Source of the DNA: an uncultured bacterium
GTDB lineage: Bacteria > DUMJ01
Assembly (NCBI GenBank): GCA_937958695.1
Contig: CALGNK010000057.1
Span: 1-32,339 of the forward strand
Reading direction: 5' to 3'
DNA: 32,339 nucleotides
Under the pieces are notes generated by a model, which did no database searches, had not been told where the DNA came from, and saw only the letters and a list, made by a program, of their open reading frames with translations. How positions within the stretch are numbered: position 1 is the stretch's first letter; every line of letters starts with the position of its first letter. This document shows, piece by piece, positions 8,768 through 14,324 of this stretch. A program made the translations under genes and the position numbers.

Positions 8768-8789
8768 GGGGTAAGGGTATCCTTACCCC
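8768..8789. terminator. Hairpin between converging TPR and glycosyltransferase genes
   Basis: GGGGTAAGG (8768-8776), a 4-nt loop GTAT and CCTTACCCC (8781-8789) form a perfect GC-rich 9-bp stem between two convergent genes; it overlaps the glycosyltransferase stop codon. On the plus strand the following sequence is moderately T-rich (TAATTTTTA) after a 7-nt gap. It is probably a terminator, weaker than the others in the window. Confidence 0.55.
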
Positions 8790-9679
8790 GAGTTGCTAAT
8801 TTTTATCTCCTCTTTTAGCGTTTCCAAATATACTTTAGTAAGGAAGATAGTTAGAAAGTACCTTTTATAGTTAAAACTCTTATTAGAATTTAAAATTTTG
8901 ACTACTCTCTTTTCGTTTACATATCCAAAGCCTGTAAGTATCTGGTTTAGAGCCATATGAAAAGATGTATTCTGAATCATAAGTCTGACCTCAAAGGTTG
9001 GATATTTTTTGTAAAGATAGATTGCACTCTTAGCTCGCTCCTTTTCCTTTTCTATAAGAGTTTTAAGGCTATTCTCATTAGGTAGGGGCTGATAATGGTA
9101 CCCTACTGCTTCTGAGGCTTTGATAGACTTTATTTTTGAAGTTTTAAGTTTTAAACCAAAGTCTATATCTTCCCACCCATACACATTAAATACCTCGTCA
9201 AATCCTCCGACTTTAAGAAATAATTCTCTAGGTATAGATGCATTTCCAGAGGCAAAGTAGGCATTAGAGAAGTCTAATATGGAACCTTTGTTAGATAGTT
9301 TAGCATCTATCTCTGATATGGCTATTACTGGTCCAACTGCTACAACTCCCTCTGGATGGTTCTTATGAGCTTCTACATGAATACTTATAAAATTTGGAAG
9401 AACAAATATATCACTATCTATAAATATTATTAAATCCCCTTCGCTCTCCTTTACTCCGAGGTTTCTACAGAAGGCTGGTCCTTTTCTTTCGGATAGGGAG
9501 ATAAATCTGAAATTTCTATTACTTGAGAACCTCTTTAAAATTTCTCTAGTATTATCCTCGCTTCCATCATCTACCACTATTACTTCGTATTGAGGATAAT
9601 CTTGATTTAAAATGTACTCTATGCATCTAGAAACTATATTTTCTCTATTTCTAGTAGGGATAATTACACTGGCCTTCAT
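8783..9679 (-). CDS. Family 2 glycosyltransferase
   Basis: A 298-residue GT-A fold transferase. It has the nucleotide-sugar-binding N-terminus ASVIIPTRNREN, a VVDDGS segment, the metal-binding DSD in IIFIDSDIF, and the acceptor-side GWEDIDFGLKLK. This is the layout of GT2 enzymes that build polysaccharides or glycolipids. The frame extends upstream to 9781, but the extra 34 codons have no domain, so I start at the ATG (minus strand, 9677-9679) directly before the first beta strand. There is no Shine-Dalgarno site. An extended -10 ends 9 nt before the ATG, so the mRNA may be nearly leaderless. It is divergent from the aminotransferase/reductase fusion gene. Acceptor and sugar are unknown. Confidence 0.87.
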   Translation of the reverse strand: MKASVIIPTRNRENIVSRCIEYILNQDYPQYEVIVVDDGSEDNTREILKRFSSNRNFRFISLSERKGPAFCRNLGVKESEGDLIIFIDSDIFVLPNFISIHVEAHKNHPEGVVAVGPVIAISEIDAKLSNKGSILDFSNAYFASGNASIPRELFLKVGGFDEVFNVYGWEDIDFGLKLKTSKIKSIKASEAVGYHYQPLPNENSLKTLIEKEKERAKSAIYLYKKYPTFEVRLMIQNTSFHMALNQILTGFGYVNEKRVVKILNSNKSFNYKRYFLTIFLTKVYLETLKEEIKISNSG

Positions 9680-9688
9680 TTGTAATCT

Positions 9689-9697
9689 ATTATAACA
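9689..9697 (-). promoter_or_regulatory. Extended -10 promoter of the glycosyltransferase
   Basis: On the minus strand TGTTATAAT (TGN plus perfect TATAAT) ends 9 nt before the ATG. Transcription would start only about 2-4 nt before the start codon. No good -35 is visible 16-18 nt upstream, as is allowed for extended -10 promoters. Confidence 0.5.
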
Positions 9698-9773
9698 TAA
9701 TATTGAGGTTTGTATTAGGTTCTTATTTTTGATAGAATAAATTGAAACAGGTTTTACAGGAGGAAGATTAAAG

Positions 9774-12314
9774 TTGAGCAATACTAGATATATTAATCCT
9801 TATTTGAATAGAATGCTTGAATTTATAAGGTTAGATAAAGTATTTGTAAGAGGCGAAGGAAATTATCTTTATGACGAAGATAACGTCTGCTATTTAGATT
9901 TTATTTCATCTTTTGGGGCTTCACCGTTTGGATTTAATCATCCGGAGATATGGGAGATTCTAGAAAAAATAAGAAAGGAATCTATTCCAGCTATTGTTCA
10001 GGCTTCTATCTCTAGATATCAAGAAAGGATAGCAGAAAGATTAATTGAGCTAGCTCCTAAAGGGTTTAAATATGTTGTATTTGCCAATTCTGGGACAGAG
10101 GCGGTTGAAATAACTATAAAGTTAGTCTTTTTGTTGACTGGTAAAGATAGGTTAATAATTGCTAAAGGTGGGTATCACGGTATACAGAATGGGAAATTCA
10201 CATATATACCTTATGGAGATATAGAAGCTCTAGAGAAAGAATTAGAGGAAAATGCTAAGTTTTATGCTGGTTTTATGGTAGAACCCATACAGGGAGAAGG
10301 AGGCATAATCTTACCTCCAGAAGATTATCTATCTAAAGTTAGATCTCTCTGCCATAAGTATAACGTTGTATTTATACTAGATGAGATACAAACTGGCTTG
10401 GGTAGGATTGGATCTATTTTTTCGTGTGAAGGGAAAAATTTTACCCCAGATATATTACTTATTGGTAAGGTATTAGGTGGAGGGTTATATCCTATAGGAG
10501 CCTGCTTAATTAAAGAGGACTTTTATCCAGAAGGATTTGATCTGAATAATTTTTCTACCTTTGCTGGCAATAATATAGCCTGTATGATAGCTGATAAGGT
10601 GCTTGATATCTTAACAAAAGATAATAGAAGTTTGATATATACAGTGAGTGAAAATGGAGAGAGATTAATTAAAGAATTAATAAAGTTAAAGGCCAAATTC
10701 CCTAATCTTATAAAAGATGTAAGAGGTAGAGGGTATCTATTAGGCATTGAATTAGAAATGGATAAAAGAATTTATCCTCAAAGTATACTAAGTGTTCTTT
10801 CTGAACAGGAGAACTTAGTCCCACTGGTTATTAGTTACCTCTTAAATGAGAAGAAAATAAGATTAGCTCCTACATTAAAGAATAATAGGGTCATAAGATT
10901 AGAGCCTTCATTCGTAACTACATGGAATGAATGTCAGAGAGTTATTGAATCCCTTGAGGATGTTTTTACTATTCTAGACAGAATGGATACTCCAGAGATT
11001 ATACGCCCAATTCTTAACATAAATAGAGAAGAACTCCCAGCGTATAGTCTGAGTGTTGTGAATAGAGAGTCTTGGGATGATATTTCTCCTTCTTTAGAAG
11101 ATGGTCGTTTTGCTTTTTTGGTTCATCCACTTGATCTTGCCAACTATTACGAGTTTGACCCGACCCTTTCGGTACTTCCTAGAGATAAGATAGCTCTCTT
11201 TTCTGAGATTGGGAAGGATTTGATAAAACCCTTTGTTATAGGGAAAGTTAGGTTAGTCTCGGATTGTGGGGCTACTGCTTATGGTGAGTTTATTAACATT
11301 CCTTACACTGCTAAACAGATGCTAGAGACACCTCAAGATAAGATGCTTAAATTGATGGAGGATGCTATTATTCTTGCTATTGATAGAGGTGCAAAGATCC
11401 TTGGACTAGGTGCTTATACATCTGTTGTTACTAGAGGAGGGACATTAATCAAAGGTAAGTATATCCCTCTAACTACAGGTAATAGCTATACTGTAGTAGC
11501 TAGCGTAGATGCGTTAAGACTAGCTTCAGATAAATTGGGAATTAATCTAAGTCAAACTACTGTTAGTGTCATAGGGGCAACTGGATCTATAGGAAGAGCA
11601 CTGGCTATACTTTTGTCTGAAGATGTTTCTAGAATAATTTTAGTTGGAAATCCTTCTCATCCTAAGTCTAGCGTTAGAAGGTTAAGGAAAGTTGGGATGG
11701 ATTTATGTCTAAATATATCTAGAAAATTGGAAGCTGGCTGGAGACCAAGTGATAAAACTATTGGCGATTATCTATCGACTCTCAGTTTTCCCTCCTATGA
11801 CGATATGGATGGTTGGGAAAAGATATTAAATCTACTTGAAGAGAAGGGTTATATAACAATCACTACAGATCTTCCTCTAGCTGTATCTTCTTCTGATATA
11901 ATTGTTACAGCTACTAACAGTCCTAAAGAACTTATAGAACCTGATTATATAAAGTTTGGAGCTATTATATGTGATATTTCTAGACCGCCTAATGTGAGCC
12001 CTTCGATAAAAGAGCTAAGACCAGATGTCTTGGTGATTGATGGAGGGGTTGTAGAGATACCTGGTAGGCCCTCACTAGGTTGGTATTTTGGATTTGAGAG
12101 AGGATTAGCCTATGCTTGTATGGCAGAGACAATGATGTTAGCGCTAGAGAAGAATTATTCGGATATGAGTCTAGGAAGCGACCTTAAAATAGAAGGACTC
12201 AACTATTTTAGAGAATTGGCTAAAAAACATGGATTTAAGATAAGTCAACTGAGGAGTTTTGATAGACCTATTTCTGAAGAAGAATGGGAAAGACTTATAG
12301 CATCTAGACGATAA
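9774..12314 (+). CDS. Fusion of class III aminotransferase and acyl-ACP reductase-like domain
   Basis: An 846-residue two-enzyme fusion. Residues 1 to about 410 are a complete class III (omega/ornithine-type) PLP aminotransferase, with the FANSGTEAVE PLP-phosphate loop, D203 in ILDEIQTGLGR, and the Schiff-base lysine K232 in GKVLGGG. Residues about 444-846 resemble the cyanobacterial long-chain acyl-ACP reductase (AAR). Shared features are FAFLVHP at the start, LTTGNSYTV, a Rossmann GATGSIG at 601-607, IDGGVVEIPG, and YACMAE with C782 aligning to the AAR cysteine that is acylated in catalysis. Relative to AAR there is an insert of roughly 70 residues after the Rossmann start (about 630-700). 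The start is TTG with AGGAGGA 10 nt upstream. The inferred reaction is acyl-ACP or acyl-CoA to aldehyde by the C-terminal half, then aldehyde to primary amine by the N-terminal half. Domain calls are firm; the coupled reaction is a hypothesis. Confidence 0.85.
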   Translation: MSNTRYINPYLNRMLEFIRLDKVFVRGEGNYLYDEDNVCYLDFISSFGASPFGFNHPEIWEILEKIRKESIPAIVQASISRYQERIAERLIELAPKGFKYVVFANSGTEAVEITIKLVFLLTGKDRLIIAKGGYHGIQNGKFTYIPYGDIEALEKELEENAKFYAGFMVEPIQGEGGIILPPEDYLSKVRSLCHKYNVVFILDEIQTGLGRIGSIFSCEGKNFTPDILLIGKVLGGGLYPIGACLIKEDFYPEGFDLNNFSTFAGNNIACMIADKVLDILTKDNRSLIYTVSENGERLIKELIKLKAKFPNLIKDVRGRGYLLGIELEMDKRIYPQSILSVLSEQENLVPLVISYLLNEKKIRLAPTLKNNRVIRLEPSFVTTWNECQRVIESLEDVFTILDRMDTPEIIRPILNINREELPAYSLSVVNRESWDDISPSLEDGRFAFLVHPLDLANYYEFDPTLSVLPRDKIALFSEIGKDLIKPFVIGKVRLVSDCGATAYGEFINIPYTAKQMLETPQDKMLKLMEDAIILAIDRGAKILGLGAYTSVVTRGGTLIKGKYIPLTTGNSYTVVASVDALRLASDKLGINLSQTTVSVIGATGSIGRALAILLSEDVSRIILVGNPSHPKSSVRRLRKVGMDLCLNISRKLEAGWRPSDKTIGDYLSTLSFPSYDDMDGWEKILNLLEEKGYITITTDLPLAVSSSDIIVTATNSPKELIEPDYIKFGAIICDISRPPNVSPSIKELRPDVLVIDGGVVEIPGRPSLGWYFGFERGLAYACMAETMMLALEKNYSDMSLGSDLKIEGLNYFRELAKKHGFKISQLRSFDRPISEEEWERLIASRR

Positions 12315-12870: not shown

Positions 12871-13038
12871 ATGGGAAAACATATTAAGATAATAGTAGAA
12901 TCTTCTATAAACAAGAAAGAGGAAAAGAAGAATTGTCAAGAGTGTCAGACGCCGTGTAGGTCTGCCTGTAAGACTAGCATGACTGTTGGAAATTTGGTTT
13001 GTGAGGTAAAGAAGCCATTAGGAAAGTGGACTTGGTAA
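12871..13038 (+). CDS. scfA: SCIFF ranthipeptide precursor, five-cysteine variant
   Basis: A 55-residue precursor peptide of the SCIFF family (six cysteines in forty-five residues), a ribosomally made peptide crosslinked by a radical SAM enzyme. The leader MGKHIKIIVESS matches the family's usual start, and the core reads CQECQTPCRSACKTSMTVGN. Cysteines are at 22, 25, 29, 33 and 44. The usual fifth cysteine, after CKTS, is Met37 here. The residues equivalent to the thioether crosslink described in clostridial SCIFF (Cys32 to Thr37 there) are both kept, as Cys33 and Thr38. A GGAGGT site precedes the ATG. The maturase gene overlaps its 3' end by 13 nt, so the two are translated together. The role of mature SCIFF is not settled in any organism. 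Confidence 0.92.
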   Translation: MGKHIKIIVESSINKKEEKKNCQECQTPCRSACKTSMTVGNLVCEVKKPLGKWTW

Positions 13039-14324
13039 AGAGAGATTGGCATCTTTTCTCTATTGAAGGAGAGTATTTTTTGTTTAACAGTCTTGGTTCC
13101 CTTTATCAATTGGATGAAGAGGGAACTAAGGCTGTTGAGTCCCTTCTCAAAGGTAAAAAGGATTTTCGCATCTCTCAAGAGGTCTACAGAGAAATAGAAG
13201 AAGTACTATCTTCTTATGGAAACTTTGACATTCAAAGTTATGGTGACTTGACCTTAAAGTCTCTCTGTTTGAATGTTTCTCATTCCTGTAATATGTCTTG
13301 TGATTATTGCTTTACAAGCCATAATTTTATCTCTGATAAGGCTTTGATGGATTTAGAAACAGTATATAAGGCAATAGATTTTTTGATTTACGCTTCGAAG
13401 GATACAAAGAATATAGAGATAGACTTCTTTGGTGGAGAGCCATTATTAAACTTAGAAATTATTAGAGAAGCAAGCATATATGGTAAGAAGAAGGCTATTG
13501 AATCTGGTAAAAATCTGAGGATAACGCTTACTACAAATGGCGTCCTTTTGACAGAGAAGGTTTTAGACCTTTTAGATGAGCTAGATATAAGTATAGTTTT
13601 AAGTATTGATGGAGGGGAAAAGATACATAACAAGCATAGACATTTAATCGGTGGGGAAGATTCTTTTAAGTACATATTGCCTAATGCTTTAGAGCTAGCC
13701 AGAAGAAGAGAATATGGAGGATACTATATAAGGGGTACTTATACTGCGGAGACGATAAAATTTTCTGAGACATTTAAAGAGTTAGTTGACCTAGGATTTA
13801 GATATATATCTCTTGAACCTGTAGTGACAAATGATAAAAGTCTCTCAATAAAGAAGGAGCATATCCCTATTTTGAGGGAAGAATATAGAAAAATAGCTGA
13901 AGAATGTTTGAAGGGTGATATAAAATTCTTTCATTTTGAGTTGCCCTTAGAAGAAGGGGCTTGTATACCGAGATTAGCTAGAGGTTGTGGTGCTGGGGTA
14001 GAGTATATGGCAATAACTCCTACTGGTGAAATATATCCTTGTCATCAATTTGTTGGACATAAACAATTTAAGATGGGTAATATTTACGAAGGAAACCTTA
14101 GTGAAGAATTAAGAGATAGATTTAGAATTCTAAATATGATAGATAGTAAGCCTGCGTGTAGAGATTGCTGGGCTAGATATCTCTGTGGTGGAGGTTGTCT
14201 AGCCAACAATTTTAATATAAATAGTGATATTATGGAGCCTTATGAAGTTGGTTGTGAGATACAAAAGTTAAGAATAGAATATGCCCTATGGTTAAGGGCA
14301 AAAAGAATGGAGGTAAAGGTATGA
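13026..14324 (+). CDS. scfB: Radical SAM SCIFF peptide maturase
   Basis: A 432-residue SPASM-type radical SAM enzyme that forms Cys-to-alpha-carbon thioether crosslinks in SCIFF. The N-terminal region (about 1-80) is a RiPP recognition-like domain. The SAM cluster motif is C88-x3-C92-x2-C95 (CNMSCDYC), followed by DFFGGEPLLN. The C-terminal auxiliary cluster cysteines are in RGCGAG, IYPCHQF and CRDCWARYLCGGGC. Length matches known maturases. It starts at GTG 13026, or possibly TTG 13032, which has GGAAAG about 5 nt upstream; both lie inside the SCIFF gene. Its stop overlaps the next start (ATGA). Assignment is firm because of the adjacent substrate peptide. Confidence 0.95.
   Translation: MDLVKRDWHLFSIEGEYFLFNSLGSLYQLDEEGTKAVESLLKGKKDFRISQEVYREIEEVLSSYGNFDIQSYGDLTLKSLCLNVSHSCNMSCDYCFTSHNFISDKALMDLETVYKAIDFLIYASKDTKNIEIDFFGGEPLLNLEIIREASIYGKKKAIESGKNLRITLTTNGVLLTEKVLDLLDELDISIVLSIDGGEKIHNKHRHLIGGEDSFKYILPNALELARRREYGGYYIRGTYTAETIKFSETFKELVDLGFRYISLEPVVTNDKSLSIKKEHIPILREEYRKIAEECLKGDIKFFHFELPLEEGACIPRLARGCGAGVEYMAITPTGEIYPCHQFVGHKQFKMGNIYEGNLSEELRDRFRILNMIDSKPACRDCWARYLCGGGCLANNFNINSDIMEPYEVGCEIQKLRIEYALWLRAKRMEVKV

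Follow-up and report, generated by a model that had tools for sequence, protein, structure and literature searches.

An enzyme that is predicted to couple acyl-thioester reduction to transamination is encoded in the window, as we call the whole stretch of 32,339 nucleotides that was analysed. A class III PLP transaminase (TA) and a thioester reductase (TR) of the acyl-ACP reductase (AAR) type are fused in a single chain. By analogy with characterised enzymes, and on the distribution of its relatives, we propose that it is a bifunctional enzyme that turns an acyl thioester into a primary amine, and that in N-glyceroyl alkylamine phospholipids it probably supplies the amine chain. Domain identities, catalytic residues, the spread of the family, and the linkage of TR to TA, ligases, ACP, PlsY and a partner family labelled "cl6" were computed directly.

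Domain layout and catalytic residues

The N-terminal half of the fusion matches the Pfam family Aminotran_3 (PF00202, E 1e-70). The C-terminal half is Shikimate_DH-like in Pfam and matches the reductase half of PigE (PDB 4ppm, E 1.5e-26), the Synechococcus AAR (6jzq, E 9e-15) and the NCBIfam acyl-ACP reductase model TIGR04058 (E 2e-22). In sequence searches against solved structures, 4ppm was the top match for each half. Putrescine and ornithine transaminases are further near relatives of the TA. The AlphaFold model of the fusion is confident (mean pLDDT 90.9, pTM 0.86), and the best PDB match of its TA half, found with Foldseek, is PigE (E 1.3e-33).

An alignment of 58 fusions revealed that K232, D203, T567 to N570, G601 to G607 and C782 are near invariant. 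The column of C782 is that of C294 in the Synechococcus enzyme (SeAAR), and the C294S entry, 6jzz, differs at exactly this position. By alignment, K232 and C782 thus occupy known catalytic positions. The sequence features of didomain enzymes of the TamH/PigE type, which are the TA lysine and aspartate and the TR nucleotide-binding motif and cysteine on one chain, are all found here. The ratio of non-synonymous to synonymous substitution rates (dN/dS) within the genus is about 0.1 for both halves, indicating purifying selection, and rises to 0.3-0.7 in the linker. An earlier note on this DNA had read the N-terminal half as a class III TA with K232 and D203, and the C-terminal half as an AAR with TTGN and GATGSIG motifs and a conserved cysteine at C782; each of these assignments holds, and AAR relatives are among the best matches of the C-terminal half.

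Table 1. Positions of the fusion gene, its sites and the neighbouring genes in the window.
Feature	Position	Strand	Basis or remark
Prismane/CO dehydrogenase family protein, 437 aa	1295-2608		Covers profile positions 140-513 only, without the usual N-terminal part
Divergent GT2 glycosyltransferase	8783-9679	-	Pfam PF00535, E 3e-33; candidate lipid glycosyltransferase
AGGAGG, ribosome-binding-site-like	9758-9763	+	Read from sequence; 10 bases 5' of the TTG start
TA-TR fusion gene	9774-12314	+	One unbroken ORF, TTG start, 846 aa
Class III PLP transaminase (TA) domain, residues 1-405	9774-10988	+	Pfam PF00202; Foldseek best match 4ppm (PigE)
Missing-loop site between G136 and I137	10179-10184	+	Alignment
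D203, TA pyridine-nitrogen aspartate	10380-10382	+	Near invariant in 58 sequences
K232, TA PLP Schiff-base lysine	10467-10469	+	Near invariant in 58 sequences
Inter-domain linker, residues 406-440	10989-11093	+	Poor conservation, dN/dS 0.3-0.7
AAR-type thioester reductase (TR) domain, residues 441-846	11094-12311	+	4ppm, 6jzq and TIGR04058 matches
TTGNSYT motif of TR, residues 567-573	11472-11492	+	Sequence and alignment
GATGSIG nucleotide-binding motif of TR, residues 601-607	11574-11594	+	Sequence and alignment
C782, predicted catalytic cysteine (SeAAR C294)	12117-12119	+	Alignment to 6jzq and 6jzz; near invariant
Orphan ORF, 149 aa	12304-12753	-	11-base overlap with the 3' end of the fusion; conserved in genus; no Pfam or NCBIfam match
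SPASM radical SAM protein	13026-14324		413.7 bits against the SCIFF maturase cut-off of 425; a "ScfB-related orphan" model also matches
YjbH-like (exopolysaccharide/outer membrane) protein, 216 aa	14288-14938		Covers part of a 658-position family

Characterised relatives and the spread of the family

Two characterised proteins carry this pair of activities. TamH, from the tambjamine YP1 pathway of Pseudoalteromonas tunicata, is a TA-TR fusion; paired with TamA, a ligase-ACP protein, it makes dodecylamine from C12 acid via C12 acyl-ACP with NADH and L-Glu (PMC9594044). It is ACP- and NADH-specific, refuses C12-CoA, and yields detectable free aldehyde when L-Glu is left out (PMC9594044). Retention of the aldehyde within the window protein, which the earlier note assumed, is conjectural. 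For PigE of the prodigiosin pathway, in which the order of domains is TR-TA, there is evidence for both thioester reduction and transamination (PMC8341465). With TamH and PigE characterised, the core reaction has precedent and the window protein joins these two as a relative, without being the first of its kind; the earlier note, which knew of no characterised example, is not supported on that point. Its coupled reading, from thioester through aldehyde to amine, gains good support from the same two precedents, by which it is very likely that the window protein carries out reduction by TR and amination by TA. Acyl-thioester-to-amine chemistry has been seen before, and the novelty lies in the role that the enzyme probably plays.

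The window protein and TamH, which we compared by description, share a common order, a class III TA followed by an AAR-type TR with a catalytic cysteine. They differ in length (846 aa in the window protein, which belongs to a compact family, and 941 aa in TamH) and in setting: TamH belongs to a tambjamine pathway, whereas the window protein lacks a pyrrole cluster and comes from hosts with cl6. PigE ranks first for both halves among solved structures and NCBIfam models, but its TR-TA order, seen in two PigE loci, is the reverse of that in the window protein, and its TA branches apart from the fused TAs of the TA-TR type. Assignment to the PigE equivalog (NF053554) was rejected: the score is 452 bits against a curated cut-off of 850, the domain order is TA-TR, and pyrrole genes are absent from the window. 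In cyanobacteria the aldehyde from AAR goes to alkanes. The window TR shares with AAR a homologous reductase fold, the GxxGxxG motif and the cysteine, but is fused to a TA, as the cyanobacterial enzyme is not; at 79.8 bits against the cut-off of 449.7 for the long-chain AAR equivalog (TIGR04058), it is a homologue and not a member.

A survey that took one genome per species yielded more than 50 full-length, compact relatives in which TA precedes TR, among them members of Bacillota, Chloroflexota and Pseudomonadota. Orthologues in three MAGs of the same genus are 81-85% identical over the full length. The nearest fusions outside the genus are in Bacillota, with identities of 49-52% in Peptococcaceae and Desulfotomaculum-like bacteria and 43-45% in Syntrophomonadaceae, Halanaerobiales and Dethiobacter; those of Chloroflexota, Acidobacteriota, Myxococcales, Pseudomonas and Chromobacterium are 37-44% identical. 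The full-length orthologues in the genus (81-85%) and in many Bacillota (43-52%) exclude a chance or mis-assembled fusion, and the fusion is therefore real.

In a tree of TA domains the fused TAs form one group (22 rows, support 100/99) with the TA of PigE outside it, which suggests that the reverse-order fusion of PigE arose separately. The stand-alone TAs of TR-bearing genomes form no single clade with the fused TAs, and we therefore make no claim of common descent for the two. Counts of TA per genome are to be read as "at least" values; the TA of one genome (G006) was present in one search and absent in another.

The domains fused to the TA-TR pair in some relatives indicate what it acts on. 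In two Chloroflexota proteins (L078, 5871-10487, 1538 aa; L087, 706-5376, 1556 aa) a fatty acyl-AMP ligase (FAAL), a phosphopantetheine carrier (ACP), TA and TR follow one another on a single polypeptide, and other fusions carry a C-terminal AMP ligase (L110, L137). These ligase and carrier architectures place the pair downstream of carrier-bound acyl chains. Together with the ligase, desaturase and ketosynthase neighbours of the Pseudomonas fusions, they argue for an acyl-thioester substrate.

The Chloroflexota chains are predicted to hold the whole pathway from fatty acid to amine in a single polypeptide. On a Leisingera plasmid the TA-TR-AMP ligase gene (L137:8959-13146) adjoins MMPL and LolA-like genes, and on a Rhodovulum plasmid (L135) a TA-TR gene lies within an exopolysaccharide/exosortase region. 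Seven Pseudomonas and Chromobacterium loci (L092, L093, L095, L097, L098, L101 and L108) are clusters in which the fusion occurs with genes for an AMP ligase, a fatty acid desaturase, a GNAT-like protein, a large membrane protein, a LolA-like protein and a ketosynthase; their product is probably a fatty amine natural product.

The partner family cl6 and N-glyceroyl alkylamine lipids

The cl6 family consists of uncharacterised proteins of about 300 aa (for example G000:C11:38577-39467, in L150, and L113:7066-7968) that had no match in Pfam, NCBIfam or the sequences of solved structures. In Clostridia it stands beside the stand-alone TR, in the conserved row dus-HTH-cl6-TR-greA-lysS. The idea that the HTH protein of that row (cl1), upstream of TR, is the fatty acid regulator FapR found no support, as it had only generic HTH matches. 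Among 386 genomes across the domain, 38 have cl6, and 37 of these also have TR, which was called at E <= 1e-8 and is present in 48 genomes, some of them without cl6; the hypergeometric probability of this co-occurrence is about 1e-40, uncorrected for shared ancestry. TR proteins 680-800 aa long are in many cases cl6-TR fusions, and a cl6-TA-TR operon occurs in two distant genomes, in one of which it includes a lipid-transport-like SRPBCC gene. One genome (G183, L209) has two cl6 copies in tandem. The model of cl6 (pLDDT 89) has AAR 6jzq among its top PDB matches, at a probability of 1.00 and a TM-score of only about 0.5, and no invariant cysteine was found in the family. The cl6 protein may serve as an AAR-like subunit without catalysis of its own, or as another dehydrogenase.

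The window genome contains a cl6 gene (56% identity to the Clostridia copy) with greA and lysS directly after it. The slot between cl6 and greA is without the stand-alone TR that is usual there elsewhere, and a search of this genome found no TR besides the fusion. Eight other fusion-bearing genomes have a readable row; in six the slot is likewise TR-less, and in two the stand-alone TR is kept, in one of them at a weak score. In Peptococcaceae the HTH gene of the cl6 row lies directly upstream of the fusion. Overall, cl6 is present in 16 of 19 sampled genomes with Bacillota-type fusions, whereas all seven from Pseudomonadota, Acidobacteriota and Myxococcota are without it. The gene accompanies the Bacillota-type fusions and not the Pseudomonas type, and the window fusion is therefore of the cl6-linked and not of the natural-product type. 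A search of the window genome found one PP-binding carrier (ACP) and one AMP-binding enzyme.

The genes nearest to the fusion were rejected as a guide to its function because they are conserved only in the genus: the GT2 gene divergent from it, the 149-aa orphan, and the SPASM radical SAM, YjbH-like and DUF3842 genes. GT2 was listed as 8783-9781 and has its likely true start at 9679; its genus orthologues are 303-307 aa long. The earlier note's suggestion that it acts on an amine-bearing lipid is speculative in view of this narrow conservation, though the lipid proposed here does need a glycosyltransferase. The neighbours seen in Syntrophomonadaceae, taken from their lengths for an aromatic-acid operon, proved by sequence to be proline-tRNA ligase-, 5-FTHF-ligase- and peptidase-like, that is, housekeeping genes.

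Lipids with an amide-linked alkylamine are found in several lineages that carry TR and cl6. Deinococcota are marked by a 2'-O-phosphatidyl-3'-O-glycosyl-N-glyceroyl alkylamine, which is the main phospholipid in Thermus and Meiothermus (PMC3035268); for these two genera such lipids are reported in PMC3398001 as well. From Deinococcus radiodurans a related lipid was described in 1985 (PMC3035268). The amine chain of the T. thermophilus lipid is iso-C17 and shares its iso type with the fatty acids (PMC3398001), which fits acyl reduction and amination with no carbon lost, as expected. All phospholipids of Chthonomonas calidirosea are phosphatidylglyceroylalkylamines (PMC3367263). N-glyceroyl alkylamine lipids dominate several Bacillota according to the survey of Bale et al. 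(2025), as it is cited in PMC13274423, where Moorella thermoacetica is also cited as containing them. The enzymes for the third chain were described as unidentified in a 2022 paper on Thermus (PMC9636437), and our literature search found no paper that links AAR-type reductases to N-glyceroyl alkylamine lipids.

The gene distributions match these reports at the level of phylum or genus, lipids and genes having been recorded in different strains. In Deinococcota, cl6 is present in 106 of 111 genomes and TR in 107 of 111. A Thermus genome (G168, whose EF-Tu almost matches the T. thermophilus protein of 1exm and so identifies it) has cl6, a TA (41% identity) and TR in the form of a fusion to PlsY. 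Such PlsY-TR proteins (for example L019:6365-8026, L047:3272-5230 and L049:3895-5571) are near universal in Deinococcota. They have the same TR domain as the window protein and occur with cl6 and a related TA, but TR is joined to a glycerol-3-phosphate acyltransferase domain in place of TA; no characterisation of a PlsY-TR protein was found in the literature searched. The Thermus TA may not be the matching orthologue, because stand-alone and fused TAs form no one clade. In a Chthonomonas MAG (L133) cl6 and TR lie side by side. The gene set of the producer lineages (TR, TA and cl6) is present in the window host, and from these matching distributions we consider it probable that the alkylamine is destined for a lipid. 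On a finer balance, we lean towards the broader view that TA-TR or its split parts, together with the AAR-fold cl6, form the missing alkylamine branch of these lipids in Deinococcota, Armatimonadota and Bacillota, with TR appearing as a stand-alone protein, cl6-TR, PlsY-TR, TA-TR or FAAL-ACP-TA-TR.

Proposed pathway and competing explanations

In the pathway that we propose, an acyl chain would be passed from a carrier, most likely as acyl-ACP, to C782 of TR, and the acyl-C782 intermediate would be reduced with NAD(P)H to a fatty aldehyde. Amination of this aldehyde by the PLP-dependent TA, with glutamate, for instance, as amino donor, would then give an alkylamine. The alkylamine would be joined as an amide to the glycerate moiety of a phospholipid, with cl6 or other proteins as candidates for this step, and would most likely become the third, amide-linked chain, as in Thermus, Deinococcus, Chthonomonas and some Bacillota. 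Glycosylation would follow, a step for which the divergent GT2 is no more than a candidate. The cl6 protein, encoded elsewhere in the window genome, would act together with the fusion.

The same chemistry could instead supply an amine to a dedicated secondary metabolite or signal, of the tambjamine or prodiginine kind, and to no membrane lipid. The only characterised members, TamH and PigE, do serve pigments, and the clusters that hold the Pseudomonas and Chromobacterium relatives include genes for AMP ligase, desaturase and ketosynthase. We nonetheless regard this explanation as unlikely for the window protein, around whose gene there is no pyrrole or other biosynthetic cluster, only neighbours restricted to the genus, and whose Bacillota-type relatives are accompanied by cl6 as the Pseudomonas type is not.

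A short or functionalised acyl-CoA as substrate, giving a small or polyamine-like product, is improbable. The likeness of the TA to putrescine and ornithine transaminases would suit it, and the size of the substrate cannot be read from sequence. However, TR is of the AAR type, and its relatives are fused to FAAL and ACP or to PlsY, or lie near a fatty acid desaturase.

A loop next to H135-G136 (KTLGALSATG..YQ.PF), present in all relatives outside the genus in the 58-fusion alignment, is lost from the window protein. About 20 residues kept in every other relative are thus missing from all three genus members, close to the PLP site, and nowhere else in the TA is the AlphaFold model as uncertain as here (confidence about 67). 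If the deletion had inactivated the TA in this genus, the protein would yield only aldehyde. We think this highly improbable, since every PLP-contact residue is kept and selection on the TA is purifying (dN/dS about 0.1). Loss of the loop may change the choice of substrate or donor; a weakened or abolished TA activity is possible, and the low dN/dS does not favour it. Least probable of all is the reverse direction, in which amines would be catabolised through aldehydes to acyl thioesters: both half reactions are reversible in principle and many hosts are amine-fermenting anaerobes, but the ligase-ACP fusions indicate the reductive direction, amine transporter and catabolic genes are absent beside the window gene, and we know of no AAR-type enzyme that acts as an acylating dehydrogenase in vivo.

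If the lipid role that we favour is correct, the fusion would name the enzyme for the amine chain of lipids described from Deinococcus as early as 1985, and TR, TA and cl6 together would be a genomic marker for a lipid used in chemotaxonomy. The FAAL-ACP-TA-TR chains would be one-protein catalysts for the conversion of fatty acid to amine. The question would be directly testable in Thermus thermophilus, which is genetically tractable.
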